From the NCBI GenBank assembly GCA_946183365.1, contig CAMHAH010000010.1, forward strand, positions 49,775-113,774: a DNA stretch of 64,000 bases, given 5' to 3'. Made by a program: the position numbers and the translations under genes. This DNA is from an uncultured Clostridia bacterium (GTDB lineage: Bacteria; Bacillota; Clostridia; Oscillospirales; Acutalibacteraceae). Shown here piece by piece: positions 6,516 through 33,780 of this stretch (within the stretch, counting starts at the first letter, position 1; the number at the start of each line of letters is the position of its first letter). Below the pieces are notes generated by a model. That model saw only the letters and a list, made by a program, of their open reading frames with translations. It was not told where the DNA came from and made no database searches.

Positions 6516-6521
6516 TAGTAT

Positions 6522-6606
6522 GGGAGAGTTCCCGAGTGGCCAAAGGGGGCAGACTGTAAATCTGTTGTCAGTGACTTCGGTGGTTCGAATCCACCCTCTC
6601 CCACCA
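6522..6606 (+). tRNA. tRNA-Tyr, anticodon GTA
   Basis: 85 bases, class II with a long variable arm (TTGTCAGTGACTTCGG). The acceptor stem is GGGAGAG/CTCTCCC, the anticodon loop CTGTAAA, and the CCA is encoded. It is separated from tRNA-Thr by 6 bases. Confidence 0.97.
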
Positions 6607-6615
6607 TTAAAATCA

Positions 6616-6644
6616 GGCGGTATCTTTTGATACCGTCTTTTTCA
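6616..6644 (+). terminator. Terminator of the tRNA-Thr/Tyr unit
   Basis: Stem GGCGGTATC/GATACCGTC with a TTTT loop, then a TTTTT tract. Confidence 0.9.
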
Positions 6645-6744
6645 TTATCCTTATGGGAGTGGGTGGATTGAAAATCCATCCACTGCCGTTTTTACTCTCG
6701 GCGTTAATGATCATCAGTTAATGACGCCTGTTTTGATATGTGTG

Positions 6745-6822
6745 CAAGAAAGAGCGCTTTGTGCTCATTTCGCGTAGCCATCGGTCGCTCTCGTATAACG
6801 GCAAACAGAGCGGGCATACAAA
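6745..6822. repeat. 78-bp dispersed repeat, copy B
   Basis: A gap-free match to copies A (5657) and C (39180), about 64 of 78 positions identical to C. It ends immediately before a strong hairpin. Confidence 0.85.
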
Positions 6823-6823
6823 T

Positions 6824-6872
6824 ACCCCCTTATGGTAGTTCTCTTTCATACTGCCATAAGGGGGTGCCTTTT
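6824..6872. terminator. Bidirectional hairpin terminator
   Basis: A 16-bp stem ACCCCCTTATGGTAGT/ACTGCCATAAGGGGGT (one G-T pair), followed by GCCTTTTTT on the plus strand. On the minus strand it lies about 90 bases after the stop of the cohesin-like gene and could end the giant operon. Confidence 0.75.
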
Positions 6873-6960
6873 TTGTCTGTTTTACCGGACCTGTTCAAAC
6901 GGAAGAGAGAGCTTTGTTACGGAACGTTAAGGCTCAACCTCCTGTTTACTCATGTATCGA

Positions 6961-8409
6961 TCAGAGTGTAGCTGTTTCGCCTATCGGGTACGGGACAGGG
7001 AAATGTGTAGCGTAGCGCTGGATGAATGTAGCGTCAAGTGCCGTAAGCTCGCCGTCGTCGTCAACGTCGCCGCGCATAAGCTGTTGCTCGGGATAAGGAA
7101 CATATATAAGTGTAGCGCAGCGCTGGATGACAGTAGCGTCCAACGCGGTAGCCTCGCCGTCGTCGTCAACGTCGCCGATAATATACATCCTCGGCAAAAC
7201 AACGGTTTTGATACTTGTATAAGCTTTACCCTCAAAGGTAACCGCGGCGCGATAGGTAAGCTCTCCGTCTTCAGTAAGAGAAGGGCGCTTGGTGATCGAT
7301 ATTGTGATATCGGCGCTTATACTGATATGATCGTCGCCTTTGGCACAGGTGAATACCGCAGTCGCTTCTTCATAGCCGTTCCAAATCCATTCGGGATCGC
7401 CGTAGGTATGTCCGGTAGCGGGAATGGTTTTATGAGTTCTGCTTATCTCCTCACCGCAGACTTTGCAATAAACGACTCTGTCATAGCTGCCTGCTTTTGT
7501 GCATGAAGCGGGAACTACGTTCTCTCTGACAGAAGCGGCGGGGGTATGGGCGAGCTTGTCGATCAGTGCGCCGCCTGAGATAATCTCGCCGCAATCTTTG
7601 CAGACTGTATAAGCCTCGCGTCCCGTTTTGGTACAGGTGGCAGGCTCGGCGGGGACCTCTTCACAAGTAAGGTGTGAGCATTGGACGTCCAAAACGCAGG
7701 ACGCGTCAAAACCGCCGTCGTTACTCTTGACGGTGATGACTGTCTCGCCCTTTTTAAGGAGCGTTACCACGCCGCCGTCGACTGTCGCGACCGTCTCGTC
7801 GCTGCTTGACCATGTGACATTTTGATCAGTAGCGTTAGTCGGTGTAAAAACAGGATTTAAGGTATAGGTTTTGTCGCCTGTTTTCACGACCGCATGGGTT
7901 TGATCCAGCGCTATACCCGTCACGGGGATAGTCACCTTCACGCCGCCGCTAACCGTTTTGAACGGGATATTATCTTCATCTATATTATACACATCGTCCT
8001 GATCATATGTGATGCTGACCGTGTGCTTACCGACGGAGGCTTTCTTTGAGACCGTAAAATTTAGGGTAGCGTAGATCATATCGCCAGTGGTATTCGCCTC
8101 ACCGTTGAACCAGTTCAGCGTCACGGGGCTGGTGAAGGTCTCGGGTTGTTGAGACCTTCCGCCCAGCGCCTTGTTGTAAGTAACACTGTTGAGCACAAGT
8201 CCGCTGTCGAACTTAGCTTTAAGCTTTATCGAGGCTACTCCGGGGTTGTTTTCGATACGTATAGCAACGCTTACCTTCTCTCCCCTGCTCGCCTGTTCCA
8301 TGGAGACTGCGAATGTCGGTCCATCATTTGCCGCGGCCGAAGCCGTCATTTGGTTCATAATCGGTATAAGCAGTAAAACCGCGAGCAAAAAGCATATGAT
8401 TTTCTTCAT
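6961..8409 (-). CDS. Secreted cohesin-like/Big_2/dockerin protein (small scaffoldin candidate)
   Basis: 482 residues, with a signal peptide (about 1-26, ending ASA). Residues about 28-160 look like a cohesin: SRGEKVSVAIRIENNPGV, then FDSGLVLNSVTY, and a closing GGVKV strand. A Big_2 immunoglobulin-like domain follows (165-245, ending TWSSSDETVATV and an ITVKS strand). Next come two Cys-x2-Cys modules (CKDCGEIISGG, CKVCGEEISR; about 250-345), a beta segment, and a C-terminal dockerin (about 408-475) with paired loops DVDDDGEATALD and DVDDDGELTALD. A protein with both a cohesin and a dockerin is an adaptor: it binds a dockerin partner and docks itself elsewhere. It starts 15 bases after the giant gene with AGGAGG, so the two are co-expressed. 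The cohesin call is by eye and is the main uncertainty. Confidence 0.82.
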   Translation of the reverse strand: MKKIICFLLAVLLLIPIMNQMTASAAANDGPTFAVSMEQASRGEKVSVAIRIENNPGVASIKLKAKFDSGLVLNSVTYNKALGGRSQQPETFTSPVTLNWFNGEANTTGDMIYATLNFTVSKKASVGKHTVSITYDQDDVYNIDEDNIPFKTVSGGVKVTIPVTGIALDQTHAVVKTGDKTYTLNPVFTPTNATDQNVTWSSSDETVATVDGGVVTLLKKGETVITVKSNDGGFDASCVLDVQCSHLTCEEVPAEPATCTKTGREAYTVCKDCGEIISGGALIDKLAHTPAASVRENVVPASCTKAGSYDRVVYCKVCGEEISRTHKTIPATGHTYGDPEWIWNGYEEATAVFTCAKGDDHISISADITISITKRPSLTEDGELTYRAAVTFEGKAYTSIKTVVLPRMYIIGDVDDDGEATALDATVIQRCATLIYVPYPEQQLMRGDVDDDGELTALDATFIQRYATHFPVPYPIGETATL

Positions 8410-8424
8410 TTTGCAACCTCCTTC

Positions 8425-11400
8425 TTAAAATATTTCGACATCTGAGCCGTGAAGATACTGATACAAACGGGTCAGATCCTTATTGTTGACCTTGCCGTCA
8501 CCGTTGATATCGAGGGCGGTCTCATCGACCTCGACGTTCCAGTCGGTAAGGTACTTGAACAGAAGATCAAGATCGAGATCGTTGACCTCTTTGTCGCCGT
8601 TGATATCACCCGGGAGCTTGAGCAGGACAACATCTATATCCTTGGATATATCGCCGTCGCTTACGGTGATGAGCATGCTGTCAGCAGCGAGCCTTTCGGA
8701 AGTATCGTCGAGGCTGAGGATATAGGTTCCCGCTATGACGTCTGTGAACGAATAGGTAGTCACGCCGTCGACGACCTCTACCGTCGCGGTATAGGTGACG
8801 GTACGGTCAGCCGTGTCGGTCAGAATGAATACAGCGCTGTTCAGATCCGCCTTTTCGTTATCGGGGATCAGCTTGCCGGAAACGGTATATCCGGGGATCT
8901 CGCCGATCTGTACAGCCGCGCTGCCGTGTCTGAGCACGGTATGTTTCACGCCGGTTACGGTAAGATTGCCGTTATCATCTGTCGTATAGATGTTTTCGCT
9001 CGCGATCTGGAGAACCTCGATATACTGACCGTCGCGTACGTCCTTCACGGTGAAGCTCGAGACCGCGCCGGCATTGATCCAGCCTGTCATGTCAAGGTCA
9101 GCGTTGACCGCGTAATCTGAGGTCGGCTCGCTGTCAATAACTCGGTAGAATATCTCGCCTGTCATGGTAAGGCCGGTGCTCTGAGCGCCAAATACGGTGA
9201 CGGTGACGTCTCTCCTGCCTTCGATCCGGGTAGCCTGAACCGAGGTAAAGGCGTCAGCGTATGTCTCGGTATGAGTATCGGGCTCGGTATATCCCTCTAC
9301 CTCATCGGACGTGGCGTCGGATAAGCCGCCCGCGGAGTTGACCGAAACTGCCGAGATCCTTCCGCTCAGATGAGGCTTAGAAATGATAACTCTGAAGCTG
9401 CCGTCCGCGTCGGGTTCAAGTACGGCGGCGATGCTCTTTGAGGTGTAAGTAAAGGGTTTGCCGTCTTCGTCCAAAGCCTCAAAGTCATCCTCATAGTACA
9501 GGATGACGAACGCGGCTCCGGGCGCTGTACCGGTAACAAGAACGGTACCTGACTTTTCGCCGTCTGTGATATCGAGATCGGGCGCGTCGGGAACGGTCAG
9601 GTCGACCGTGACCTTGACCTGAGCGGTATAAATGATCTTGTTGCCGTCAACGCTCCAGTGATCGGCGTCGTAGCCGGATGAAGCGAAGGATAAGAATACG
9701 GGATCGCACACCGCCGCGTCAAAGGTGACCGTGAGTGTACCTGTATAATCGCCGGCGGGTGTGTCGGGATCAGCCTTGATATCAAAGCTGCCGTTGAGAG
9801 CGCCGCCCGCGTCAAGCGTCATATCGTCAAGTCCGACGACAGACGCGGTGAGCTTCTCGCTCTCAAAATCGAGCGCCGCGCTGATAGTGCCCGCGCTGAT
9901 ACCCGCGCTCTCGCTGACAGAGAAGTTGATCGTGCCGTGGTTTTTGCCGTCCTCGGAAACATTGTTGCCGTTGACGACCGTCTCATACTCGGCGTGCACG
10001 GCGGTGATCGCCTTATCAAAGGACGATACCGCGCCCTCGACCGTGATCCTGTTATCAAAGCCCTCTGGCGTTGTGACCTTCACGGTATAGGAGCCCGCCT
10101 CACAATTGCGGATGATCGCGTAGTCACCTTCGTTGATGAAGGATTCGGCGGCTACCTTCTTGCCTGACGGAGAGATAAGCTCTATAGACAGCCTGCCGTT
10201 TACGGGAGCTGCGGCAAATATCCTGAGGCTCTGACCCTGTTTTACGGTGATCGAACCGGTGAGGGTCTGTTGACCGGTCACCCAACCGGATACGAGTGTT
10301 CCGGCGCTGACCTTGTTGCGCATAGCCGCGATCTGTCGTTCGGAGCCTGCGAAGAAGTGGATCACGAACGGTCCCTGTTCGGTAGCGATGGAGACCGTCT
10401 CAGGCTCGCTTGCCGAGTAGCTGAGCACCGCGGAATAACCGGTGCTGTCGAGCAGTACGGAACGGCTGACGGTGAATTCACCGATGAAATCAGCGCTCTG
10501 ACCTGCCGGGATCAGTATACTGTCGGTGTCAAAGTTCGCGGATGCGACCATGCCGGCGGAGGTATAGATGGATACGCTCGGGCTGACAGCGACAGTCTTG
10601 TCGCCGTCGTTGCGGAAGGTCACAAGCACGGTGCCTGTACCCGTCGCCGCGTTGTCGGGGATAACTGCATCCTTTATCGAGTAGGTGATAAGCTCAGTAT
10701 CGAGCGGCGGGTCAAAGACGACCGCTCTGTCAAGCGCCGCGATCAGATCATAGATCTTGTTCGCGATCTCTGCCTCTTTCATTACGGTGGAGCCCATGTT
10801 GAGCGCCAGTTCGGCTATCGACATTGCTGTGAGCAGCGAGCGCTGCTTCCACGCGTCGTCAAGCTTGGTGAATACCTGATCGGCAAGGCTGTCCCATGTT
10901 GCCGCGGCTGACGCGCCGAGTGACGATGAGATAGCGTTGGGGCTGAGTATCGTAACCATCAGAGCTGAGCGCACGATCAGATCGTACATCGCCGCTGTGT
11001 AGTAGTCTACAACGACCATCGAATTCTCGGCGTTGATGACGTCGGTGTTCAGCATCGCCTTGATATAATCGCGGAAGCTCATAGTGAAGTTCTTATCTAT
11101 CTTGAGCATCGTGCCGCTCTCGGAACGGACGGTCCAAAGGTTGATGTCCTTATACCGACGCGTTGAGAGCCAGTCGATGTTCGCCGCCGCCTGCAGTTTC
11201 TGTGACAGCTCGTCGAGATAAGCGACGATCTGCTTTGCGGGATATGATGAATTCTTGATTATCTTGTCACTGTAATGCATGACTATCGACTTAGCCGATT
11301 CGATCTTTGCGGCGGCTTCTTTTCTGACGTCACGGAAGATCTTCTTCGCGATCGTCTTATCAAGATAGCTGTCGAGCGCTTTCTTCGCGTCGGTCGTGTC

Positions 11401-14400
11401 GGATTTCTGCATATATTCAAGGATTTTCTCGGGCGTCGCCTGCTCGGTGATAGCAACGACATAGACCTGCTCAAAGAGAGCCGCCATTACGCCGCTGACA
11501 TGAGCGATCATCCAGAAGGAATCGGTGCGCTCGTCACGATCGTACTTAGCGCGCTGGACGTTCAGATACTTCACGAGATACGCGGCTACGTCTGCCTTGT
11601 CGGAGGCGGTCAGCGGTTTGAACGCGCCGGGCGCCTTCTCGTTGGATTTGACGATCGCTTCTTCTATAAGCGTCATCAGCTCCTTGACAAGCTGAGAATC
11701 CTTGGTGAGCGGGCCTGTAGAATTATCGTTGCGAACCGCTTCATAGGTATGATAGTTGAGTTTGAGGGTAGCGTCGCCGAACGCGCCCATCGCCTTGGTC
11801 ATTTCATCCTTCTCGTTAGCGAGCTGGATGAGGTTCATCGTGTTGGTGATGAACTCGGCGTATTTCTGCAGCGGTTCAAACTCATTCGCGAGCTCCAGCC
11901 CCTCGTTGCCGAGTACCGCGAGTACCGCGGAGGTGCCCTGTGTTGAGGCGGTGCCGAGCGCGGTGCTGAAGTTCTTGACCTTATCCTTCAGAGAACGGAA
12001 GCTCTCCTTAGCGTCATAAACATCCTTGACCTTGCTGATGCCGTCCGCCGTCTTGGGGAATATCTTTGCAAGATAGTTGTCGTTGATATCCTCGTCCTCA
12101 TATGCCGCCTTGACGGCCTCCCACGGAACATCGAGCTTATGATCCTTGATGTACTTGTCAAAGTCCTGCTCATAATCACCGCGCAGGTGATGATTGAGCA
12201 TTATATGACCCTTGACGAGACCGACTGTGACGTCGAGATTACCGACGGCGAGAGCCAGACCGGTAAGGATGTCGGACGCCTTGAGGAGCTTTTTCTGAAC
12301 ATCGTTATAATTGTAATAATCAGACGTTGCCGCTACCTGGTCGGAAACAGCCTTCATGTACAGGCTGTGTACCGTAGCGAAAGTATCGGCGTACTGTGCC
12401 GTTATCTCAACATTGATGTTGACCCAGTCGCTGACGATACTGTTCAGCTTAGCCTCTGCATCAGCGAGCTTAACGACGCTGACACCCGCCTCTTTAAGCA
12501 GCTCTTCATAAACGAACAGGCTGCTGTTTACTATATTGGCGAGAGATCTGAGCTTTTCATCAAGCTCTGAGAGAGAGGCGGTCAGTTCAGCGTTCACCCG
12601 CTTCTGCGGCTTCATGCTGCCCAGTCCCTCAAGCTGTCTGAGGCTGCCCTCGACCTGGCTCTTCTTGGCGATTCCGGTCTTGATGGCTCCCATGAAGGGC
12701 TGGATGCTGCCGATGATGCCGTCGGTCGCGTCGAAGAACGCGCCGAGCAGCAATGTACCGGTGAACAGCTGATCTACGAGTGATTTCTTGCCGTCGCCGT
12801 CATCTTCGCCGTCGGGGAGCTCGGGCTTCTGCGTCAGGTGTCCGCCCGCGAAGTCGAGAAGGTTAGCCGTGACGGTACCGATATAGGTCAGATACTTCTG
12901 AACGCCTACGATGACCTTTGCAGCCTGCATCATCTTGGCGTTTGTATAAGCGTCCTCTACCCTTGTGCCGAAGTCACCGACGGTAGAGTACATCATGATA
13001 GACAGGCTCTCGGAGATCTCATCAAGGAGCTCGGCGATCCTAGACGGATCGGCTGTGTTATCCTCATGAGCGTCGGGGTCACAGCTTTCGACCGGCTTGC
13101 CGCCGATGATGATCTTCGGCTTGAAGTTCTGCTTAGGCGGTTTGGGAAGGTCGATCGGATGAGGTTTGATGGGATCGGTAGGTTCAGGGTCATGGGGACC
13201 GATCGTCTTGATTCTGAAGATAAGGTAGATACTCTCTCCGGCTTTGATCGAATCGATAACGATCTCCTCGGGCACGGGATCATCCTCCCAGCTCAGGTAC
13301 CAATTCGCAAGCTCCTGAGCGGATGTATCGGCGCCGGGGAAGTCATTCATGCTGCCGGAGGCGAAAGAGGTCAGTCTGTGTCTTTCGCCGTTCAGAGACG
13401 GGATCTCGGGCGCGGTCATCCTGATCTCACCGGAATCTCCCAATCCGGAGTTAGTGAGAACTGTGACCAGATAGGAAACGCCGGATTCATCGTCGAGCGT
13501 GAATATCTCTTCATACGAGGTGATATCAGCCGGAAGCTCAACATTCTGCATGACGGGCTCGGTAGAGCCGGTATAGGTCCTGCCGTCTCTCTTGAAGCTG
13601 TATTCTACCCACGCATAGCTCGTACCTGCCGATTCTCTGAGCTGATCGGCGATCTTAGACGCCTCGTCGGCGGTCATATAACCGCTGTCGATCAGATAAG
13701 TGAACATATCGTTGCTGTAAAGCTGAGAAAGCGGCTCGAGGTCAAATACAAGACCAAAGCTACCGTTCGCGAGGAGTGTGCCGACGTCGATGCCGTTGCT
13801 TGTCGCGAACTTAGCGAGGATCTGCTGTTCGCTGAGACCCTGCCAGCCCTTGACGCCGACTGCCTTCTCGATCGAAGGCGAAACGTAGAATTCGGAGTTC
13901 TTGAGTGCGGCGCCGGGAGCGAGCTTGCCGTTCTCATCAGGCATCATATCGGAGATAATGACCTTGAACGAAAGCTCATCGATCGTCTCAACGCTGCTCG
14001 GGTTCTCAAATCCGACAGTCAGTCTTGAGTGCTCACCGCTCATGACCATATCCTGCTTGAAGCCGATATCAAAGCCATCGTTCTTCTGCGGGGACTGAGC
14101 GGGAGTTGAAGTCGTTCCGGAATTGTTCAGGAACTTCTTGCTGTATACCTTTGCGTTCGCGTTGGAGCCGGTCGAGAACGCGCCCTCCAAACGCTCGGTG
14201 GTATAGATAGTGTTGCTGCTCTCATCATTCAGATAATAGCCGTTGGGGATAAAGTCGACCTGTACGGGGATGGTTCGGGTGAGCTTCTTCATCTCGACCG
14301 ACCTTGTTCTCATACCGGTATCGGCAAACTCGAGAGCGCTCCTGCCCTCGATTATGATGTCGAAGCGATAGAGCTTAGGTACATCCTTGGTATAGATCGG

Positions 14401-23400: not shown

Positions 23401-26400
23401 GACGAGCCTTGAAGCGCCGGGCGCGAGGGTGACCGAGAGAGTATCCGCGAGCGCGCCGTCGATATAGAGCGAAACGTTGAACTTCGCGTTTGCTTTGCCG
23501 TGGTTTGAGACAGTAGCGGAGTAGATGACCTTTTCTTCTGAGGTCATGACCGCGGTCTTGTCGAGGGTAGAGCCGTTGCGCCAATCGCCGCCTGTAACGG
23601 TGATCTCGGCAAAATCGGTCTGCTGAGCGTTATAGCTCTCTGTCCTGCTGTTGTTCTGCTTATCGGACTCCTTAAGCGTATCGAGCAGATCGTTGGCGAC
23701 GATCTTTATGATCTGAGCGCCGGTCTCAGCGGTATAGGTAAAGGACACGGTCTTTTCGCCGCCGACCGGAACGCCGCCGCTGACTGTCTGATAGCCGCGG
23801 TATACGCCGTTAAGATAGAAGCCGACAAGGAACGCCATATCGGCGGGAACCGCGCCGTAAGCGGTCGGGCTGTTGCTGACAACGGCGTCGACGCGTACGG
23901 TGTCGTTTTCTTTGATGGTGTTAGCGCCGTCGACCGGCGTATATTCGCTGTCAGTCGCGCCCATGCGATAGGCCGTGATCGAGGAGATCAAGAGGTCGGG
24001 ACGTCTGTCGATGACCTTGACAGCTTTGGTAACGGAGGCGGAAGCGCCTCTTTGGTCGGTGGCAGTGAGGGTGATCGTATATTCGCCGGGCGACAGGTAA
24101 CGATGCTCGACGGTTTTGCCGTTCTTGACGGTGCCGTCGCCCATCTTCCAAACAAAGGTAAGGTTCTCGGTCTCGCCGTCGTCGATATCGGTCGATAGCT
24201 CAGCACTGTAGGTCTCGATATCGGAGGAATCGATTGTCGCCTTGGTGGTGATAACCGCGCGAGGCGCGTGGTTGACGGGATATGCGCTTGTGACGATATC
24301 CTTAGCGCACGCCTGAGCGGTAAAGATCAGAGAAGTCGCGTTCTCGGGAACGGTGAAATCGAAGGTGAAGGAGTGGTTGCCGGGAGCAAGACCACTGAAT
24401 TCCTTCTCAGCGACGGTCAGCGTCTGTGCGCCTGTATTCGCCGTGAGTACCAGCGTGCCCGCAGCCTTGGCAGGACCGTTGTTAGTGAAGTTGACGGTGA
24501 TCTTCATCGGTTTGCCGGCAGCGGGTACCGCTACATCAGTCATGACAGACTTGAACTCGAGTGTGAATACCGAGGTCGGAACGGCGCTGACCGTGCCGAC
24601 AGGCGCGGAAACATTGCCCGCTCTGTCTACGGATTCAAACCAGTAATAGTATCTGACGCCGTCTTTCAGTCCCGTATCGGTAAAGCTGCCCGACGCGGTC
24701 TCGCCGGCGACCTTGCGCTCAGACACGGATGCGGTTCGTTTTGTCGCTCTGAAAATGCGGGTATAGTAAACGTCGCTTGAAGCAGGCGTAAAGCTGAGCG
24801 TTACGGCGCCGCCGCTCATAGCGTCGACAGCCTTTAAGCCGCTCGGAGCTTCAGGCGGAACAGAATCGTATCTATACTTCGCGTAATACCATGATGAAGC
24901 GTATGCCGCGCCGCCGTTGTTCTCGGCTTTGACGCGCACGGCGAACCAAGCCCCCTCCTGAAGTCCGGACAGAGCCGAGAAATCGATCGTTGTCTGAGCT
25001 TGGAACGCGCTTTGTCCGAAGCCCGGGAGCATGGTCTGGTCGACCTCGATACGCTCGATGCCGTCGGTGATGACCGCGGCGGTCTGCCATATCAGGTTTT
25101 CATCAGGCTCGATCGCTGAGCTTGTGCCGATGTAAGCGTACTCAAAGGTGAAGCGCTTGACGGCGATCCTGTCGGAAGCGACCGCGGTAACGGTCAAATC
25201 GCCGTTGAAGCTTGAGGAGCGCAGCGGGTCGAGATAAATGACAGTTGGAGGTGTTTTCTGCTCACCGGGGAGCGCGGTAACGATATTGGAGTAGCTGCCT
25301 CTTGTATCTCCCGCGACCGCGCATACCGTATATCGGTATGTTACGGTGGGATCGAGTTCGTCATCAGTGTAAACACCGGTGTTTGAGGGGACCTCGGCAA
25401 GGAACTCAAAGCTGCCGCTTCCCTTAGCTCTGTAGATACGATAGCCTGTTACGTCAAGGCGAAGAACGCTCTGCCAGCCGAGGGATATCTTGCGCTCGCC
25501 GGGCTCGGCAAGGAGCTGAGAAGGAGCTGAGACAGTGTCGCCGAAGGCATAAGCGTTGGTGATCCACTCGCTCTTGTTGCCCGAGGGATCAAGTACGCGG
25601 AAGCGTACAAAGATATTCTGTGACGCGCCCGCGTGGACCTTTGAGAAGTCCACCGTGATCTCTCCGTCATTGAAGCTGCCGTTATACAGCTCGGCAAAGA
25701 CGGCGTTTATATCGTCATAGCTCTTCCACTCGACAACGGCAGAGGATACCTTTACGTTGTCGTACGCTGAGAGCGTGAAGATCTGAGAGGATGAGATATG
25801 CGTTCTCTCATCGGGCTTGACCGAACGCAGTGTAGGAGCGGAATCGTCCTTCTGCATCGAAACGGGAGTATCCGTTACAGCCGCCGCGCCGATTACAGGC
25901 TGACCCGCTACGGTCGCCGCCGCGGCAACGGCGTAGTAATACTGACCTCCTACGCTGTCTAGGATATCGTTATAGGAGCGCGAGGCGGTCTCGGCGATAA
26001 TATTGCTATTGCTGACGATATTCTCACGGGTGGTGCTCCTGTAGATGAGATACTTCTCACTGTTGGGAACACTGCCCCAACGAATGTTGATCTTACCGAT
26101 CTCTGAGGATACGGTGACGTATTCGGGAGCGAAGAGCTTGAGACCGATCTCAATCTCTTTGATCTCACTGCCGAAGTTAGCGTTGCCGTAATACTCAGCG
26201 TAGATGTACTGCGTGCCGATCCAGGAGGAATCGGTAGCGGGAACGGTATATTCGATCACAGCCGTACCGTCAGCCGCGAATTTGCCCTCCGCGAACCAAC
26301 GCTTTGTGTTATCTACGACCCTGTACAGTCTTAATACCGTGCCCTGCTTCGCGACATTGGAAGTCGCCGTAAAGGTCAGCTTGTCGCCGAGCATGACGCT

Positions 26401-29400: not shown

Positions 29401-32400
29401 GAAATATAAAGCGGTGATCTCGGGCGCTTCATCATCCTCGGGGAGGACATAGAGCGGAGCGGAACGGTTCGTCTGGAACCAGCCGTAGATACCGTGGCGG
29501 TCGAATACATCTCTGTACCACTGACCGTAGGTATTCTTCAAATAGATCTCAGCGACATAAACATATCCGGTGTCGGCGTCGAGGTTCTCGCTGCCGTCCA
29601 TGCATTTCCAGCCGCTGTCGGCATAGATATTGTTTAGCTGAGCCCAACCGGAGGAGTTTCTGGCTCTGCGCCAGACAGAAACGCGGTCATAATTATCGTT
29701 GTCCTCAAGGAACTCCTTGATGACCGCCTTCGCCTGTGCTTCGGTTGCGGTAGCCGAGCCGGTGATCTGCTCGATAGTCTTGCCTTTATTGACGGTGATA
29801 TAGGTGTATAGCTCGTCTATGACCGCGTCGGGTACGGTTATATCGTTGACGTCGATCTCCATGCCGTCGATATAAGGAGTGACCTTCAAGCCCTCAAGGC
29901 GCGGGAAATAGCTGAAGTCATCAGCGTTATTATCACTGTGGTATTGCAGGAAAACGATCGCTTTCTGACCGACGGCGGAATCGGGCGTCGCCTTTATTGT
30001 CAGGCGCCAGTCGCCTGCTGTCAGGAACGGACCTTCGGTATAATACATACCGTTTTTATACGGGATATTGTACCAATAATCGTCCACGGTCACATACGCG
30101 CCGTCGACCTTCTTTTGCAAAATGATATATGCTTCGCACTCTGAATCAAAGTTGCCCTGACTGATCGTGCGCAGAGAGTAGAACTGATATTTAAGACCCG
30201 AAGGCACTGAGATATCGACCGACTGAGTCATCCCGCCCGCCGTTATCGGGATATAGTATTCATCAGACCACTGACCGGACGCGGTAACCGAGGGAATACC
30301 GAAGGACCCGACCTCGGTCGACTCGATGAACTGCATCGGTACGACGGAAATACCGTTGTTAAGTCCGCTGTAGGTAACAGAGCTTTCCCATACAGCCTCC
30401 GCGGTGAAGGTAAGGTTGCGGTCAAACGTGATCGGACCGGTGTACTCGGTCATATTATATGATGGGTTGCCGTAGCCTGTGTCATATTTGAACGAATAAT
30501 AGAGCTTCGCACCCTCAGACAAGGTAGACAGAGTGATCGTGTTGCCGTTCACCTTAACTTCAGGCTTTGCAGGCATACTGTAAAGATAAATATAATTATC
30601 CGAATTGAAACGGTATACCTTACCGTCGACGGTAACGACCGCGCCCGCTCTGACGTAGATGCTGCAATCACGTTGATAATCATCCATTCCCGCGGCTTCT
30701 GCCAGATCGGCAAGAGTGATCTTACCGGGGACATACTCACGGGCGTCCGCATTCAGCGTACCGTCGCTGTTAAAGATGTACGAGCTTTTGGAGTTATAGT
30801 AATACTTTACGTCAACTGCCTTGCCGGGGAAAATATCCGAGAGGTCGGGCTTGCCGATATACAGGTTGCCGGTCTTGTCGTAGATGACGTCTGTGGTGCC
30901 GTTTAAATTGCTGTAGCCGACCGTAGTCCTGTTGCCGTTCTCGTCAACAGCATAGATATCGAACTGACCCGCGTAGATAAAGTATCCGCTGTAGACGCGT
31001 CCGAATGTGCCGGTATCAGCGTCATAGACCGCCGCTTTGATTTTGACGCGCGGTTTCCCTGAACCGACATAAACGACGGAATAATAGCCCGCTTTAGCGC
31101 TTGAGAGGGTCGGAGCAGCGGGCTCGGAGCCGTCTGTGGTAAGGTTATAATAAATCGCCGAGTTTGGTTTAGCGGTGCTCAGATACAGATAGAAGCCGCG
31201 GTCGGAAACATACCGCTCGCCCATATCGTTGACAGCGCCGTTGAAGAACACCTTATCCTCGGCGGATACGGTGAAGTTTTTGAGCCTCACTTTATGAGCA
31301 AAATCCTCGTCATCATAGACAACGAGCGTATATTTACCCGCCGGGAGCAGAGTATCGTTTTTATAAAAGTGAGTATATCCGTTCAGATCATCATAGCCGG
31401 GATACTCCCAGCAAACCGTGCCGTCAGCCGCTTTTATATACGACCAGTAGAATGCGTATGAGTAGTAGCCCGCATCTACGGCGGTCTCGGACTGCAGATC
31501 GAAAGAGATCAGGCTCGGCGCGGTCAGGGTAAAGGTGAACTCCTGTGCAATATCCTCATAATCACCCGAAGCGTTTTGCAGCTTGCTGACATAAAACTCG
31601 ATAGGAGCGTCGCCGGATGAATACGGAGTATCAAGCGTACCGAGGTCATAATCGCCGCCGTCGGCGTACATCTCGGACACAGCGGAATACGCGCCGTCGC
31701 CGTAAGTGACCGCGCGGACAAGTTGATTAGCGCCGCCCAGAGAGAACGGAGCCGAATACGCTTTTCGTGTGGGAGAAGAGGACGGATCGGTGCCGTCGAG
31801 CGTGTAGTAGATCTTGCCGCCGTCAGCTTTGAGCGTAACGGTACCGCCCGCGGCGGTGATGGTCGGCGCGGTCTCGGTGACGGTGATAGTCCTCTCGGCA
31901 ACATTGCCGACGATATTGACGGTACCGTTCGACAGCTTGGAATATGCCTTTAAGGTGACGACGTCGCCCTTGACATAATCGACCGTGCTGATGGGGCCTG
32001 TGTATAGAGTGCCGTTCGACGTAGGATCGCTGCCGTCGAGCGTATAATAGATCTCTGATGTATAATCATTGGGGACGCCTGTGCTCTCGAGCTTTATCGC
32101 CGATACAGCTGTATCGCTGTCCCCCTCGACCGAAGTATCCGCGACACGGATCAACGGCTTTTCAAAGATAACGTATTTGCCGTCATCACCGCTGTAGCCC
32201 TCGCCGCTTTCGCCGTTGACCAGAACGGCATAGAGCGCAACGTCGTCGGCGTTGATATCGCCGCTAACCTCAAAGGTACCGTCAGCCTTTGTCCAACCTT
32301 CGGTAGATGCGGTATCCCCTATCCGACCTATACCGTAGTATACGGTATCAAAGCCGCCGCCGTATAAAACGCGCGCGCTCAGTCGGCAGGGATAGTAAAG

Positions 32401-33624
32401 AATATCGGTGTCGTCGTACTCGTTAGAGAAGATCAGGGTCGGCGACAGCTCAAAATCGTAGGTGTTTTCTACAACGGGCGATGTATATACAGCCTCGCCG
32501 TCCTTAGAATAAACGCAGATACCCTTATAATTCAGAGCGACGCTGCCGGTGAGACCGTCGAGGATATCGTTGAGATAACCGGGCTCGCTGTCAGTAAGCA
32601 TGAAATCGTAGTCGATCTCGCTCGGGATATCGGCTTCACCGTTCGCGGCGGCGTTGATATAATAGGTCTGCGTGATATTGGTCGCGGTCGCGTCGGAAAG
32701 GTTGAGATAATCGGTCATCCTGAGATTGTAGCCGCCGACGCCGCCGTATACGCCGATATGGCGGTAGCAGTCGAGCTCCCAGAAATTGGTGCTGATAAAG
32801 GTACCCTTGATCGCCCTGTCGTTTATGTCAGTCATGACAGCGCCGACGCGCGCGTAACTGTCGGTAAACTGAACGGTGATGTGATCGGTGTACTCGCTCC
32901 AGCCGCTGTTTTCAGCCGAAAAATCAAAAGCGGGATCGGCTTTGTACGCTTCGATAGCGCTGTTTGAAGCGGTGAAATACACCTTTGAGCCTTCGGGTTC
33001 GTTGGAGGTGGTGAGCGTTACGGTATCATCGGGTGTGAGATAATACTCGTTAGCGAGCTCACTTCCGCCCCAGCGAGCAAAAAGGCCGTTGCCTGTGCCG
33101 AAGGTGATCTTAGGCGCGTAGGGAGAAGCCTCGTCGATATCCGTCTCGGGATCGGTCGAGGTATCATCCTTAGGCTTATTCGGGTCAAGCGGAGTGTCTT
33201 TGTCGCCAGTGTCGCTCGAAGCGGGGATCGTATCGGTCCTTGTACCGGGAGCGTCAAGACGCAACAGGTCATCAAGGTTGAGATCATCCGGCATTACGAT
33301 ATGGACAACAGGCTCGCCGACTGCGGCTTCGCCGTCAGCTCCGCTGTCAACGGTCACCGATGTATTTTCGGAGGGCTGAACGAGTTCCGTCGCATCCTGA
33401 GTATCGGGCGGCGCGGAATCGCCGTCAAAGAGCTTCATCAAAGCCGGAACTCTTTTGCCGGTATCCTCCTTTACGGGTTCATCGGGAACATACTCCTCGG
33501 CCGGAGGACTGTTCGTCTCCAGATAAACGGAATTCGCCCGGGTATTGAAGCATACCCCGAGCATGAGCACTATCGCGAGCAACAGCGCCAGCCCGTTTCT
33601 GGCCATTCGTTTTGTCTTTAGCAT
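8425..33624 (-). CDS. Giant secreted modular protein (8399 aa) with C-terminal dockerin
   Basis: One uninterrupted frame with a signal peptide (1-31) and an acidic Pro/Thr linker (32-165). Chitobiase-like modules follow (YYTLDGSDPTSNGTLYTGP near 527, YYTLDGTDPSSS near 605), then FN3-like modules (near 1515, 2028, 2501, 2701, 2921). There are two PKD domains (about 3118-3205 and 5030-5133, WDFGDG type), each leading into chains of CARDB-like domains (PDLLISS, PDLIIVP, DLTIDNVS), and two carboxypeptidase-regulatory-like folds (about 4155-4245 and 6096-6188). A Pro-rich hinge precedes an all-helical block (about 6846-7641), more beta domains, and a dockerin (8338-8398, DINGDKEVNDLD and DINGDGKVNNKD). 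No enzyme motif or LPXTG signal is seen. It is probably a surface adhesin or scaffold held by a cohesin. The start is ATG after AAGGTGAT. It leads an operon with the cohesin-like gene. Confidence 0.93.
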   Translation of the reverse strand: MLKTKRMARNGLALLLAIVLMLGVCFNTRANSVYLETNSPPAEEYVPDEPVKEDTGKRVPALMKLFDGDSAPPDTQDATELVQPSENTSVTVDSGADGEAAVGEPVVHIVMPDDLNLDDLLRLDAPGTRTDTIPASSDTGDKDTPLDPNKPKDDTSTDPETDIDEASPYAPKITFGTGNGLFARWGGSELANEYYLTPDDTVTLTTSNEPEGSKVYFTASNSAIEAYKADPAFDFSAENSGWSEYTDHITVQFTDSYARVGAVMTDINDRAIKGTFISTNFWELDCYRHIGVYGGVGGYNLRMTDYLNLSDATATNITQTYYINAAANGEADIPSEIDYDFMLTDSEPGYLNDILDGLTGSVALNYKGICVYSKDGEAVYTSPVVENTYDFELSPTLIFSNEYDDTDILYYPCRLSARVLYGGGFDTVYYGIGRIGDTASTEGWTKADGTFEVSGDINADDVALYAVLVNGESGEGYSGDDGKYVIFEKPLIRVADTSVEGDSDTAVSAIKLESTGVPNDYTSEIYYTLDGSDPTSNGTLYTGPISTVDYVKGDVVTLKAYSKLSNGTVNIVGNVAERTITVTETAPTITAAGGTVTLKADGGKIYYTLDGTDPSSSPTRKAYSAPFSLGGANQLVRAVTYGDGAYSAVSEMYADGGDYDLGTLDTPYSSGDAPIEFYVSKLQNASGDYEDIAQEFTFTLTAPSLISFDLQSETAVDAGYYSYAFYWSYIKAADGTVCWEYPGYDDLNGYTHFYKNDTLLPAGKYTLVVYDDEDFAHKVRLKNFTVSAEDKVFFNGAVNDMGERYVSDRGFYLYLSTAKPNSAIYYNLTTDGSEPAAPTLSSAKAGYYSVVYVGSGKPRVKIKAAVYDADTGTFGRVYSGYFIYAGQFDIYAVDENGNRTTVGYSNLNGTTDVIYDKTGNLYIGKPDLSDIFPGKAVDVKYYYNSKSSYIFNSDGTLNADAREYVPGKITLADLAEAAGMDDYQRDCSIYVRAGAVVTVDGKVYRFNSDNYIYLYSMPAKPEVKVNGNTITLSTLSEGAKLYYSFKYDTGYGNPSYNMTEYTGPITFDRNLTFTAEAVWESSVTYSGLNNGISVVPMQFIESTEVGSFGIPSVTASGQWSDEYYIPITAGGMTQSVDISVPSGLKYQFYSLRTISQGNFDSECEAYIILQKKVDGAYVTVDDYWYNIPYKNGMYYTEGPFLTAGDWRLTIKATPDSAVGQKAIVFLQYHSDNNADDFSYFPRLEGLKVTPYIDGMEIDVNDITVPDAVIDELYTYITVNKGKTIEQITGSATATEAQAKAVIKEFLEDNDNYDRVSVWRRARNSSGWAQLNNIYADSGWKCMDGSENLDADTGYVYVAEIYLKNTYGQWYRDVFDRHGIYGWFQTNRSAPLYVLPEDDEAPEITALYFRLPGGVETDKISKAATIFTDATDNQRIRSYRLEYKLSTDSDDKYQMIQQSDDVWKKVYSYYRHMRYVDLTPGERYTFRYTVLDSSGNSDVKTFTAVAEDIPAPQDFSYTQDSNSVIISWTPKKGYRFTYDILDTNGNAVKSSYWYNYDNTSPENGNLRIYVDPIKYPTFTIRQRQETYESEYNIGLDYVYKYDCSVGADDEAPIIREIHPADGNDGGYGNRRVAVRAWDDGRLYSMEIAFYTRSGEEGSYVYTPAEGLPSAATYYYSKAHIDDLFNGEIWNNAPYDCRGVEPGEYYVGARVTDTAGNTSDWTYAKMTVDKDAVFRTPLPAPNVTAGSDRFYIEPYVPYYDSYLRERICIDYIDYWNRRGYELTEEIINDYLDHILEYAHVEYFFIRSSWDRSTNITDYIVNGELTYRFTGGNKLPFADNTDYYSPIPDCYYLFYVRLVKNNNVDLTEWQRDLLEGGNDYVWVNSLPTLPIKLLDDTGAPEVSDIINTSGIVNVDNASVISVDVTDDQLLKEVVFEYRVNGGNWFKSDESTYYHNGRLTITDNPSDRRSSVTAAIDISWLRYNTNDHGDYNGYYRDIDLQNGDIVEIVAYAVDHHGNKSAVKTATYTYVQIDPPTGVTVTPSNAGAVVSWNKVELPADVVAGSPEYGYRVYAYKVGEDYRAFSETDVAPGVTSAEIPLDATKYTGSYYFKVAVLTSTGGLGDKSEKSNDVTPFADNTPPTAAFTADTTVLAGTNTNGRINFKVNARDNNYIRTLHVKVVDNKGKVYATWIFDVTDERNWGYRYYYYYGYIGGLCEESGVFNTLDLGDSAGDSALTDKNGKRYIPDGVYKLTLTVTDFSDLTCNYEQEITVDNLAPDISGGKLNTAVAVKGPDAAYSYERLVTNISWSIPNNVEALSAVEIRRYEFSELEKAQNLIHDPAAYAGQYYYSVISTDPELRTAENGISSGRYYVYILTAVDKAGNRSDMLLSSIVFGGEPKYTLSVKVNGSPDFDSVMLGDKLTFTATSNVAKQGTVLRLYRVVDNTKRWFAEGKFAADGTAVIEYTVPATDSSWIGTQYIYAEYYGNANFGSEIKEIEIGLKLFAPEYVTVSSEIGKINIRWGSVPNSEKYLIYRSTTRENIVSNSNIIAETASRSYNDILDSVGGQYYYAVAAAATVAGQPVIGAAAVTDTPVSMQKDDSAPTLRSVKPDERTHISSSQIFTLSAYDNVKVSSAVVEWKSYDDINAVFAELYNGSFNDGEITVDFSKVHAGASQNIFVRFRVLDPSGNKSEWITNAYAFGDTVSAPSQLLAEPGERKISLGWQSVLRLDVTGYRIYRAKGSGSFEFLAEVPSNTGVYTDDELDPTVTYRYTVCAVAGDTRGSYSNIVTALPGEQKTPPTVIYLDPLRSSSFNGDLTVTAVASDRIAVKRFTFEYAYIGTSSAIEPDENLIWQTAAVITDGIERIEVDQTMLPGFGQSAFQAQTTIDFSALSGLQEGAWFAVRVKAENNGGAAYASSWYYAKYRYDSVPPEAPSGLKAVDAMSGGAVTLSFTPASSDVYYTRIFRATKRTASVSERKVAGETASGSFTDTGLKDGVRYYYWFESVDRAGNVSAPVGTVSAVPTSVFTLEFKSVMTDVAVPAAGKPMKITVNFTNNGPAKAAGTLVLTANTGAQTLTVAEKEFSGLAPGNHSFTFDFTVPENATSLIFTAQACAKDIVTSAYPVNHAPRAVITTKATIDSSDIETYSAELSTDIDDGETENLTFVWKMGDGTVKNGKTVEHRYLSPGEYTITLTATDQRGASASVTKAVKVIDRRPDLLISSITAYRMGATDSEYTPVDGANTIKENDTVRVDAVVSNSPTAYGAVPADMAFLVGFYLNGVYRGYQTVSGGVPVGGEKTVSFTYTAETGAQIIKIVANDLLDTLKESDKQNNSRTESYNAQQTDFAEITVTGGDWRNGSTLDKTAVMTSEEKVIYSATVSNHGKANAKFNVSLYIDGALADTLSVTLAPGASRLVNFYEQPVSGRHTVIIAADDPLLIETDPTDNSVTFTTAEFTVDKAEISTELTVEYPTGMTDGRIAQGGTVTLTATLTPNADISKAINVRFYIDGTIIKTVKVGADTLKKGVPYSTGLSAKWVVSDGVHTISVVTDSDLAVLETPSEDSAQSVDITVIKPDLWLSDVSWAPADTIEWGNSAAFLVRVSNRSVATLYQPYVLKLWANKLDPDGAPTKWDVVSSGNYNGIQGNSTSVQILNWDPKSSGSWRLLITLEKGNGADFDTTYYLPLDWETVDTAFGDYAYSYEFTVKDGLTLKVNPNKSGEDADFGANIFVGSSNTIDVSGEMSLASKPGSLLNSVSDGAMITVRLESNSDSSIVREAVLTDSGTGKFTGAILTEGLISGMYTLTFSAQGASYIAHYYTQIMFIDDIVGSVTTPLDSYFTGEMVTISGNAGVGNTPYTGTIVLDLNLYPYYGYRLPDGAVINGDVPDNYELYWRGEKTIFLTADENGNFTYSFKATNADAGRWSINAYAFEKAFGSGIRASDITIYGMETKPTATTVTAAKNTDFSTTVKLYNSAWDGTYGGLTGISAVLLNGNDFDGITAILDYSTVKTTLGAGESFPVTINFFTDEDCADNAEYVIQFSSIEGATATATIKLSMRPGVPKLYADQKAVTAAANPGSTVTKTVTVTNKGIATMKNIAVESGDLSFIRASEPSKTTLAPGESLTFEIVMAPTASVQYGKYQDTVTVTNGVVSLPIPVGLEVTVLEYGSVQFKVRDDFGESVAGAVITLYGRDPYVQYINGKETIYYLNYSVTTDENGVASLSDKPIGVYDFTVTAKGKQTYTGDLDIMPMTQPAFEEIELITNPVEISWTVTETTIVDEYEIELTVDLGVVIPEPKLGSSMPWFTIAKNMQSAAVLETKIVNHSLIDVIDAVAVIDGNVSGISVVGGGYIGTIPAMSNVTVQLLVQPGYYDLPTFGDATAADKAALRVTGSYVSFDPDTGLPVYPAKTTSVKIPIYNPGKQKVNMEVMIGDGEKKQKLEINMPDDSSYDEMDYFIYQEETGGRIKDKDKTSGNVYEVVKLSLSQTASLERQAFDAELKITNNYPGYDLESLTTEVVIQYTDPETNEVSFITDNVYIIQTQGAATSSVASGATYTGKWKIIPGIGMGGESGRKYQVFARITYMVNGKLVTTATDAAEIDVKPQPRLTVDYYLPHKIYPNSSFRLGVSVTNEGTGTAKNVILDSSQLDIVANTSNLRSVWEIVSSSFGSYNPGSFRLVLGDIPGVNNGLADDGSDLPNMVWGYFTILWTMPELEEGYLNDVYGEIRDFTATITHKPYEGVELDSLIDAVNTHIVARDSVKILDDSSGEYIDTMQVIVGTNGLPESIRNTETNVSVGVFVPEGLSGDKSGADAYTFTAPITSAALSDDNSALRHQILMLGESDDFADKNISAVYRYTSADYSGEPTSLSFSNYWKDTYTVDGEEKDLLYVVDEILRDENSNILPRYYKVVYGSATAITEIKTSGITYIEDMGNLVRTAVFYDTGRFHDEDDTVPLGVQTSVYNSGKNPESVMVYLYRAPVVSGKTGAFTLVDKKPITVTSYNIELVYFYIDLYANAEMPAGVYEFRAGTSENPEDYSVSAQTVINALPTANAGVDFNAVVNKTVVFDASRSYDPDGQIKSFVWDFGDGSSGWGVAPTHIYTSSGTYIASLTVTDDNGTANALITKGYNKEGSPTDSYAVHNVMVTVRDDRPDLIIVPDVLSSSIGKGLEITIGGKPVSKTNTADEGEEIEIYARVMNDKPENPIPSSFIVSLYKDDVYLGYQRISSVYEATYKIGSQTRTVQCADVKFTDIAADNLSHVYTVRANDVSIAFDEADMFNNQRSSIVYGASGRTVFPNVGITAVTFEGRSIKNGAVATKSMNLAFGKAISFDITLKNSGTEATGEFPLTARVNGKWAASELVSSIAPGKSVTVTLSFVPDGGDSQLITFTADGPYPRTLDSDRSDNTWTYNAGTITLSKADLTIDNVSIATDGSDAVITAIVTNIGAVTAENSSTVTYYADERYLGATLVGSIMAGESKEVKFIWKNYEATDRITAVADAMSAVDETDELNNTYTVSSDGEGSIVESRAMPAITVTKMTTSGSAGFGANMSTEITLKNVGSGESSGAFKVSLFAQGILVGESVIDRSILPGAVAQTTVNWIANVLPTGEYKLTALADSEYNIVMSSRAGVRADETFTVSDGISVSVESDAAYLTESSDNKVRVRVIRSDGKPNTGSAEVKVMVADTAIVSTAVYDPSTDRYIAQLDLSSVPTGERVIIASASFDGMSDASSFTSTVVPAIGVTVKTDSSVYKTGDTMTVSGTVKGLSAGEKIDISIIGDQIYRYTATVNKSGRFSLKIDLPANAGGAMRVEATVKNAGANRTASTDIYVYGAYFATVSSASVTAGDKTFVIGSVENIGYLDMRSVTVSASSRSADGQSSAVPTVRFMSGGHAYVVTEKSVSLLEAVTDGVSVNGRGIEYNSLDCKMQIDAADCTPGDYEIVLTVTASTDRGEYSLDKLISVSVLVPKALMDITNLNSLGADDEGENKLAVNTSAAPGEMKTFTYRVVNLGTGNLTGLTAELFDKNGNSIPWASLVMTGGVPSEDGLTTTVYPYYKGYDIGTAEGAARIGVTFAPQENIAAGRYDMTLTISADGVDTVNIPMTVYVSAHSIGTKVIQVVTTDGSIVTDGKVTLYGPVSSSYSIQPIDPKSYTGDISGAVTVGSNLSLGGTVQFTNIPSGTYNVSVSGNGIKAVTKQIEVLPVIDPIPEKIVVEQQMFIITSSSSTEKTLDSYTSKNSAYDDAMYKLQFSSAFESEKPDILPDYPIDEIEIAYYNGRISSRLAIMNTDMVTGNEAHNVTDITIRIDSKDIPAEYIKFKTADGLTDTLNVGTLAPQETFDFVWNLDLSALYIEAAVEEDGVNYTLTLPEGLDWNTYYSAWDRENTRIDARGYLTKHMYNKVSVSADGRVLTVTPADTEIGAPDGRVPIYTKDVPKLYRFDIIIEGRSALEFADTGMRTRSVEMKKLTRTIPVQVDFIPNGYYLNDESSNTIYTTERLEGAFSTGSNANAKVYSKKFLNNSGTTSTPAQSPQKNDGFDIGFKQDMVMSGEHSRLTVGFENPSSVETIDELSFKVIISDMMPDENGKLAPGAALKNSEFYVSPSIEKAVGVKGWQGLSEQQILAKFATSNGIDVGTLLANGSFGLVFDLEPLSQLYSNDMFTYLIDSGYMTADEASKIADQLRESAGTSYAWVEYSFKRDGRTYTGSTEPVMQNVELPADITSYEEIFTLDDESGVSYLVTVLTNSGLGDSGEIRMTAPEIPSLNGERHRLTSFASGSMNDFPGADTSAQELANWYLSWEDDPVPEEIVIDSIKAGESIYLIFRIKTIGPHDPEPTDPIKPHPIDLPKPPKQNFKPKIIIGGKPVESCDPDAHEDNTADPSRIAELLDEISESLSIMMYSTVGDFGTRVEDAYTNAKMMQAAKVIVGVQKYLTYIGTVTANLLDFAGGHLTQKPELPDGEDDGDGKKSLVDQLFTGTLLLGAFFDATDGIIGSIQPFMGAIKTGIAKKSQVEGSLRQLEGLGSMKPQKRVNAELTASLSELDEKLRSLANIVNSSLFVYEELLKEAGVSVVKLADAEAKLNSIVSDWVNINVEITAQYADTFATVHSLYMKAVSDQVAATSDYYNYNDVQKKLLKASDILTGLALAVGNLDVTVGLVKGHIMLNHHLRGDYEQDFDKYIKDHKLDVPWEAVKAAYEDEDINDNYLAKIFPKTADGISKVKDVYDAKESFRSLKDKVKNFSTALGTASTQGTSAVLAVLGNEGLELANEFEPLQKYAEFITNTMNLIQLANEKDEMTKAMGAFGDATLKLNYHTYEAVRNDNSTGPLTKDSQLVKELMTLIEEAIVKSNEKAPGAFKPLTASDKADVAAYLVKYLNVQRAKYDRDERTDSFWMIAHVSGVMAALFEQVYVVAITEQATPEKILEYMQKSDTTDAKKALDSYLDKTIAKKIFRDVRKEAAAKIESAKSIVMHYSDKIIKNSSYPAKQIVAYLDELSQKLQAAANIDWLSTRRYKDINLWTVRSESGTMLKIDKNFTMSFRDYIKAMLNTDVINAENSMVVVDYYTAAMYDLIVRSALMVTILSPNAISSSLGASAAATWDSLADQVFTKLDDAWKQRSLLTAMSIAELALNMGSTVMKEAEIANKIYDLIAALDRAVVFDPPLDTELITYSIKDAVIPDNAATGTGTVLVTFRNDGDKTVAVSPSVSIYTSAGMVASANFDTDSILIPAGQSADFIGEFTVSRSVLLDSTGYSAVLSYSASEPETVSIATEQGPFVIHFFAGSERQIAAMRNKVSAGTLVSGWVTGQQTLTGSITVKQGQSLRIFAAAPVNGRLSIELISPSGKKVAAESFINEGDYAIIRNCEAGSYTVKVTTPEGFDNRITVEGAVSSFDKAITAVHAEYETVVNGNNVSEDGKNHGTINFSVSESAGISAGTISAALDFESEKLTASVVGLDDMTLDAGGALNGSFDIKADPDTPAGDYTGTLTVTFDAAVCDPVFLSFASSGYDADHWSVDGNKIIYTAQVKVTVDLTVPDAPDLDITDGEKSGTVLVTGTAPGAAFVILYYEDDFEALDEDGKPFTYTSKSIAAVLEPDADGSFRVIISKPHLSGRISAVSVNSAGGLSDATSDEVEGYTEPDTHTETYADAFTSVQATRIEGRRDVTVTVFGAQSTGLTMTGEIFYRVIDSEPTSDYAVNADLDMTGWINAGAVSSFTVKDVRDGQYIEVLQIASENIYTTDDNGNLTVTGVKHTVLRHGSAAVQIGEIPGYTVSGKLIPDNEKADLNSAVFILTDTADRTVTYTATVEVVDGVTTYSFTDVIAGTYILSLDDTSERLAADSMLITVSDGDISKDIDVVLLKLPGDINGDKEVNDLDLDLLFKYLTDWNVEVDETALDINGDGKVNNKDLTRLYQYLHGSDVEIF

Positions 33625-33780
33625 AACATCACCTTAATACTGTAAATAATGTTTTACACAAAGTTAATATCTTTATATCGCCGGATGCACAAAATTTTAT
33701 TTATTGTTACTATATCATTATGTCAATAGCTTTTTCAACACAAGACACTTATTTGTCCGTGACATTTTTATGGCAACACC

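Follow-up and report, generated by a model that had tools for sequence, protein, structure and literature searches.

A stretch of 64,000 nucleotides, which we call the window (its genome is G000), carries on its minus strand a gene for a giant protein that ends in a dockerin and, directly after it, a gene for a small protein with a cohesin and a dockerin of its own. The pair raises the question of how the giant is held at the cell and what the small protein, hereafter the adaptor, contributes. When typed by sequence profile, the two dockerins belong to different classes. We consider it likely that the giant is a non-catalytic surface protein and that the adaptor is its dedicated converter, which would turn a type-B plug into a type-A plug and so display the giant on the cell.

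Results

The giant protein

The original prediction described an open frame of 25.2 kb that encodes 8,399 residues and a C-terminal dockerin, with a partner gene 15 bp on; the coordinates and a Pfam Dockerin_1 match agree with this description (Table 1). The frame is not a product of chance, because it is intact in a homologue of 8,378 aa from the same genus (G175; 70.9% identity over 8,340 columns) and in one of 8,363 aa from another genus of the same family (G203; 71.1% over 8,333 columns), that is, at about 71% over more than 8,300 residues. From the gene spacing we infer that giant and adaptor would be co-transcribed.

The predicted signal peptide stands on a by-eye reading of the hydrophobic N-terminus, whereas the "dozens of beta modules" that had been claimed do not, as Pfam assigns about 12 such stretches and leaves most of the length without a match. 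Scanned against the families as two halves, the giant contains two Fn3_assoc/chitobiase-C-like modules, one fn3, two PKD, six CARDB and one HYDIN-like module, followed by the C-terminal Dockerin_1. A beta module of 100 residues spans about 4 nm, at which rate the giant could reach about 0.3 micrometre; to our knowledge, it is among the longest dockerin clients. The helix-rich stretch (taken here as about residues 6868-7665) found no PDB relative at E below 0.1 and no PHROG match, and its AlphaFold model, built from three sequences, is mostly helix with a pLDDT of 39.9, which makes the model unusable, so that we claim no fold for it.

The absence of enzyme motifs had also been noted, and it holds: Pfam at E ≤ 0.1 and NCBIfam at its cut-offs reveal neither a catalytic nor a carbohydrate-binding module in the giant, including the region beside its dockerin where a cellulosomal enzyme would carry its catalytic module. 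The one weak NCBIfam match is to the pectate lyase PelI (residues 2941-3005, 17.8 bits against a cut-off of 620). A cohesin, the defining feature of a primary scaffoldin, was not found in the giant either; one sub-threshold cohesin stretch (C10:66495) lies on the opposite strand. The giant is a client with no cohesin of its own, and on that ground the proposal that it forms a fibre or scaffold gains no support.

The GC content of the giant is 54.2%, against 49.2% for the remaining window, and its GC3 of 0.672 is in line with seven neighbour genes (0.61-0.70). Since the GC3 values are equal, composition is uninformative on recent transfer, and we dropped it as a means of judging this. The 20 largest of at least 60 families of internal DNA repeats are short and diverged, and thus give no sign of recent repeat expansion.

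Table 1. Features of the giant/adaptor pair and its surroundings, in window positions
Feature	Position	Strand	Basis
Giant protein gene, 8,399 aa	8425..33624	-	Open frame; homologues of 8,378 and 8,363 aa at 71% identity
Giant, predicted signal peptide, about residues 1-30	33535..33624	-	Hydrophobic N-terminus, by-eye reading of translation
Giant, Fn3_assoc / CHB_HEX_C_1 module, residues 596-650, best of two	31675..31839	-	E 4e-23 for family
Giant, fibronectin type III module, residues 2699-2783	25276..25530	-	E 5e-14
Giant, PKD module 1, residues 3118-3202	24019..24273	-	E 1.5e-15
Giant, CARDB module, residues 3359-3440, best of three in first half	23305..23550	-	E 3.7e-17 for family
Giant, PKD module 2, residues 5032-5108	18301..18531	-	E 1.5e-21
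Giant, CARDB module, residues 5405-5500, best of three in second half	17125..17412	-	E 4.9e-31 for family
Giant, helix-rich stretch, about residues 6868-7630	10735..13023	-	Composition rich in helix-forming residues
Giant, type-B dockerin, residues 8338-8391	8452..8613	-	Pfam Dockerin_1; B 108.4 vs A 37.8 bits
Promoter-like site TTGAAA-18-TATAGT, 5' of giant	33709..33738	-	Consensus scan; 3 sites vs 1.4 expected in region
Intergenic gap giant/adaptor, 15 bp, AGGAGG-type ribosome-binding site	8410..8424	-	Sequence
Adaptor gene, 482 aa (signal peptide, cohesin, Big_2, Cys-rich stretch, dockerin)	6961..8409	-	Open frame, Pfam; signal peptide and Cys-rich stretch by eye
Adaptor, cohesin domain, residues 31-159	7933..8319	-	PF00963 25.5 bits in genome search; Foldseek
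Adaptor, Big_2 Ig-like domain, residues 162-238	7696..7926	-	E 1.4e-12
Adaptor, type-A dockerin, residues 412-466	7012..7176	-	Pfam; A 107.3 vs B 13.9 bits
Divergent HTH gene beside giant, 599 aa	33827..35626	+	Pfam HTH_31; positional homologue in G175, 24% identity, E 6e-35

The adaptor

The cohesin-like domain that had been proposed for the small protein is missed by hmmscan and passes the Pfam cut-off of 24.1 bits in a search of the whole genome (PF00963, 25.5 bits). The lack of a cohesin fold had been named as the result that would speak against the proposal; Foldseek instead matches the AlphaFold model of the adaptor to solved cohesins, with the single-cohesin chains listed starting from E 1.2e-9 and a target TM of up to 0.82. 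The adaptor's own dockerin, also foreseen, is found by Pfam at the end of the protein (Dockerin_1, 33.8 bits vs a cut-off of 22.9). PHROG matches of the adaptor overlap its Ig-like part and were set aside. Pfam reports no other cohesin over cut-off within the window, where the pair has tRNAs and the HTH gene as neighbours. In a cohesin tree, the window cohesin groups with the giant-linked one of G175 (94/94), apart from the two cohesins on contig C3 of its own genome.

Ten loci in named genomes hold relatives of the adaptor, nine of which align only past the end of the cohesin, mainly in the Big_2/Cys-rich part. The best relative, at L038, is an 815-aa surface protein (31% identity over query residues 2-338) that has no match to the cohesin profile, and no giant was found in the 21.7 kb examined there. 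Directly after it in this uncultured Clostridia bacterium (L038:9947-16057) comes a 1,163-aa protein ending in the sole Pfam dockerin of that genome, and the two proteins are possibly a minimal plug-and-socket pair.

Two dockerin types

We parsed 66 dockerins in the own genome, made up of 63 Pfam hits and three found separately; a further dockerin-like stretch, seen by eye in a GH25 lysozyme (window 3931-5211) and missed by Pfam, was left out. Profile A was built from 63 own-genome dockerins and profile B from 19 dockerins of G203, and the type labels thus come from profiles that were trained in part on genomes to which they are applied. Type A accounts for 64 of the 66; the two of type B belong to the giant and to a 1,875-aa LRR protein on contig C3, and in both cases the next gene encodes a cohesin and a type-A dockerin. 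Profile A derives from this genome, which makes G175 the independent test, and there the giant's dockerin is the only B among 22 distinct dockerins scored (23 rows, with one dockerin, L284, entered twice) of the 40 in the genome. G203, on which profile B was trained, has 29 dockerins; of the 26 that were read, 21 are type B, with a margin of just 2 bits in one case. Among 20 adaptor homologues from the database (P0003-P0022), 18 carry a type-A dockerin; the dockerins of the other two (P0021 and P0022) are nearer B, with low scores on both profiles.

Since the giant and the small protein carry dockerins of different type, the small protein probably acts as a type converter, beyond simply holding the giant. 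The profile scores and the genomic linkage together point to a cohesin and a dockerin of different predicted specificity within the adaptor.

Candidate A sockets are two cohesin proteins on contig C1, of 416 and 713 aa, each with a membrane helix by eye; the adaptor cohesin is 16% identical to the C1 membrane-anchored cohesin. We scanned the C3 protein for domains, together with 17 type-A dockerin proteins besides the adaptor, a chosen rather than random set from the 64. In six of the 17 the dockerin is the sole named domain, and the others contain mainly LRR_5, C-type or ricin-type lectin, lipase, papain-like protease, Big_2 and InlB-type repeats; one has GH85 C-terminal and transglutaminase-like domains. 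This range suggests a contact surface rather than a plant-wall cellulosome. On contig C27, which encodes at least three LRR dockerin proteins, one dockerin protein (L119:229-4278) combines six C-type lectin stretches with ricin-type lectin domains, which is unusual for a bacterium. The window itself encodes a 479-aa protein with an N-terminal dockerin (48602-50041).

Recurrence of the pair

A genus search with the giant's dockerin covered 161 genomes, with at most 31 candidates scored per genome. Adaptor-like cohesins gave 59 matches in 28 of the 161 genomes, and hence are not the general socket of the genus. Among the candidates scored, 11 of the 12 best giant-like dockerins (E ≤ 1e-10, own excluded) lie within 3 kb of an adaptor-like cohesin, where about 0.12 would be expected from the cohesin counts and an assumed 1.9-Mb genome; relaxing the threshold to E ≤ 1e-7 gives 14 of 45, again among candidates scored. 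One of the twelve, G092, comes from a genome without such a cohesin hit, and its dockerin types as A. Nine of the 11 linked dockerins share a protein with their nearest cohesin, and a neighbouring gene has a cohesin too in all 11.

From the dockerin and cohesin search hits we picked 26 loci to read. An adjacent pair, consisting of a protein with a giant-like dockerin and a cohesin protein, is present at 16 of them. Within the dockerin protein, a cohesin immediately precedes the dockerin in 14 of these 16 pairs; the exceptions are the window giant and the G175 giant. The linkage statistic therefore mostly reflects the cohesin in the dockerin protein itself. The dockerin protein comes first in 13 pairs; in the other three (L087, L189, L201) the cohesin protein comes first, and the cohesin-dockerin part sits near the protein start rather than the end. 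The cohesin protein carries a type-A dockerin in ten pairs and none in six. Five of the six without one (L192, L195, L196, L197, L199) end, by eye, in a lysine-rich tail, which is perhaps a charge-based hold on the cell wall; the one tested of this set, L192, contains Big_2. A further cohesin protein, in G083, ends by eye in a membrane helix.

The partner dockerin is slightly nearer A in two of the 16 pairs (L196, L201), and the margin is about 1 bit in L086 and L199. The frame filter missed a seventeenth pair, L202, whose partner dockerin leans towards A by 2 bits. Elsewhere, L203, L207 and L208 have a cohesin and more than one dockerin within one protein, L085, L198, L205 and L206 are without such a cohesin, and L200 and L204 each have one cohesin protein, with no B partner in the stretch read.

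The own genome holds a second pair on contig C3 (L048:2780-9123), in which the 1,875-aa LRR protein, ending in cohesin-DocB, is followed by a 245-aa cohesin-DocA protein, and the two genes overlap by 22 bp. Less than 9 kb away are genes for a MobA-type relaxase (14473-15690) and for a phage-type integrase (16105-17382), so that the C3 pair may sit on a mobile element.

Giants in other genomes

A search of related genomes for the same gene pair had been proposed, and the pair recurs in a second species: G175 has a type-B giant, a gap of 14 bp and a type-A adaptor, in the order seen in the window. Two other genomes provide contrasts. The giant of G035 ends in an A-type dockerin (95.4 vs 20.0 bits); the gene next to it encodes no cohesin protein, and the Pfam cohesins over cut-off in that genome are on another contig. 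The giant of G203 has a B dockerin, the majority type there, and no cohesin/type-A neighbour gene; G203 also encodes a 230-aa cohesin-DocB protein and a 306-aa cohesin frame with a C-terminal membrane helix (by eye), 42% identical to the adaptor cohesin.

G035 is the closest to the own genome of the species compared in core proteins (malic enzyme 85.5%, PyrR 84%), ahead of G175 (malic enzyme 75.1%, no PyrR match) and G203 (malic enzyme 66.9%, PyrR 55%). The G035 giant is cut by a contig edge; over 1,410 common columns of the giant's C-terminus, identity to the window giant is 59.4% in G035, 69.5% in G203 and 68.0% in G175. This discordance points to a transfer of the giant between lineages. 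We keep the transfer apart from the main finding, because it draws on two core proteins, one of them unmatched in G175, and on a giant tree of only six rows with one weak fork (0.72).

Region 6191-7700 of the giant is matched in three of 161 genus genomes and in five of 295 genomes drawn from the order, own included in both counts, and two long giant pieces (P0123 and P0124) are the only hits among 582 protein database candidates scored. Three of the order matches are in other families, G293 (7,849 aa, cut by the contig end), G382 (9,744 aa) and G231 (9,007 aa), at 22-32% identity over the matched parts of that region; the G382 and G231 giants (L220-L223) are 22-28% identical to part of the window giant. 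G382 ends without a C-terminal dockerin, and in G231 a single weak dockerin stretch lies close to the end; a dockerin is therefore not a universal part of such giants.

Discussion

The dockerin typing, the recurring pairs and the comparisons with G035 and G203 lend independent support, at the level of genomes, to the earlier proposal that an adaptor encoded with the giant holds it. The holding may work as follows. The giant's B dockerin would plug into the adaptor cohesin, which we infer to bind class B, and the adaptor's A dockerin would plug into resident A cohesins, for example the membrane-anchored ones of C1. The giant would thereby be displayed at the cell surface, from which it could extend outward to contact a polymer, the host or another microbe.

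The alternative that survives best, though we think it unlikely, is that the two proteins are neighbours but not partners, with the giant docking on the C3 cohesins and the small protein's cohesin serving other B clients. The two C3 cohesins are of the same broad class, so other sockets exist that could receive the giant, and one dockerin group can bind several cohesins in R. flavefaciens, as described in PMC5301203. However, each of the only two B-type dockerins among the 66 has its own cohesin neighbour, the pair is kept in G175 at a spacing of 14-15 bp, and the window cohesin clusters with that of G175, away from C3.

We give still less weight to the idea that proteins with a cohesin and a B dockerin (the 1,875-aa C3 protein and its relatives) polymerise head to tail, with the giant as the end unit and the adaptor as the foot. 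The placement of a cohesin directly before the dockerin in 14 of 16 dockerin proteins would suit such a chain, as would two precedents: R. bromii Amy4, which has both modules and is proposed to self-aggregate (PMC5814915), and R. flavefaciens ScaH, whose dockerin binds its own cohesin (PMC5301203). The giant, lacking a cohesin, cannot be the repeating unit; a chain of the other proteins is compatible with the adaptor acting as a converter.

At a similarly low probability stands an ordinary degradative cellulosome, in which a ScaC-type adaptor would recruit the giant as a catalytic or substrate-binding subunit, much as R. flavefaciens ScaC recruits enzymes with minority-type dockerins (PMC5934362, PMC5301203): the Fn3_assoc and chitobiase-C-like modules and the very weak PelI match speak for it, but the giant has no catalytic or carbohydrate-binding module within the searches given above, and of the 17 type-A proteins scanned, a chosen sample, six show nothing but the dockerin and the others are mostly of LRR, lectin, lipase, papain-type protease and InlB character, with a single GH85 C-terminal domain.

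We return to the adaptor as the giant's probable converter, for which ScaC is the nearest known parallel. As described in PMC5934362 and PMC5301203, the group-1 dockerin of ScaC locks onto the main scaffoldins and its cohesin takes group 3 and 6 dockerins. The adaptor is alike in having one cohesin and one dockerin, the dockerin of the majority group and the cohesin (here by prediction) for a minority group (PMC5934362, PMC5301203, PMC2930009). In these accounts, ScaC serves many proteins, mainly hemicellulases of groups 3 and 6, from within the sca cluster, whereas the adaptor directly follows one non-catalytic giant, has additional Big_2 and Cys-rich parts, and would serve a client with the plug type that predominates in another genus. 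Because Pfam finds no sca cluster of multi-cohesin scaffoldins around the adaptor in the window, we call it ScaC-like in working rather than a ScaC.

According to PMC11557425, adaptor scaffoldins allow type-switching. The monovalent adaptor scaffoldins of Acetivibrio and Ruminococcus treated there likewise join a cohesin and a dockerin on one polypeptide; they belong to enzyme complexes, whereas no enzyme client was found for the adaptor here. The amylosome of Ruminococcus bromii (PMC5814915) is also a surface assembly of cohesins and dockerins, but its clients are amylases and attachment is described as running through sortase signals on Sca2 and Sca5. The mucinolysome of Limousia (PMC12997984) resembles our case as a cohesin/dockerin assembly with an anchoring scaffoldin in a gut genus, and differs in its multi-cohesin scaffoldins with mucin-degrading enzymes; its main text does not use the word adaptor. 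Giant1-5 of Apilactobacillus kunkeei (PMC12863079) are extracellular proteins of 3,000-8,000 aa with sequence exchange between genera. We consider them as analogues in size only; Giant1-4 have beta-solenoid N-termini, and the abstract names neither a dockerin nor an adaptor. In titles and abstract openings of the open-licence papers listed in our searches we found no giant dockerin protein with a dedicated adaptor. Adaptor scaffoldins as such are already known; the variant seen here, in which an adaptor for one client accompanies a non-catalytic giant of mismatched code, is new.

It is quite possible, without our leaning towards it, that the giant is a surface module that travels between genera of differing dockerin codes. 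An adjacent one-client adaptor would let a recipient mount the giant at once; the dockerin might later be swapped to the local code and the adaptor lost, as in G035, and no converter would be needed where the code is B, as in G203. If so, adaptors would be a means for cohesin/dockerin surfaces to acquire foreign parts.

If the converter role of the adaptor is right, the pair represents a non-degradative, one-client use of cohesin/dockerin pairing. The genomes then amount to a natural experiment on a change of dockerin code: G000 and G175 combine the giant with a foreign plug and a converter, G035 has a giant with a local plug and no adjacent converter, and the plug of G203 is of the majority type. 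With these contrasts, the question of why adaptor scaffoldins exist becomes directly testable. The pairs are also new candidate orthogonal cohesin/dockerin pairs for assembly work.

Neighbourhood of the pair

The divergent 599-aa HTH protein is a possible regulator of the giant system, of unsure membership. The identity to its homologue beside the G175 giant (L084:7246-9000) is far below the 71% of the giants themselves, and the gene is absent from the giant's side in G203. At the far end of the window (61080-64000), a phage-type integrase and an AAA_25 protein come after a tRNA-Arg; together they probably mark the border of an integrated element that has no relation to the giant. At the near end, positions 699-797 of the minus strand encode a bacterial small SRP RNA.
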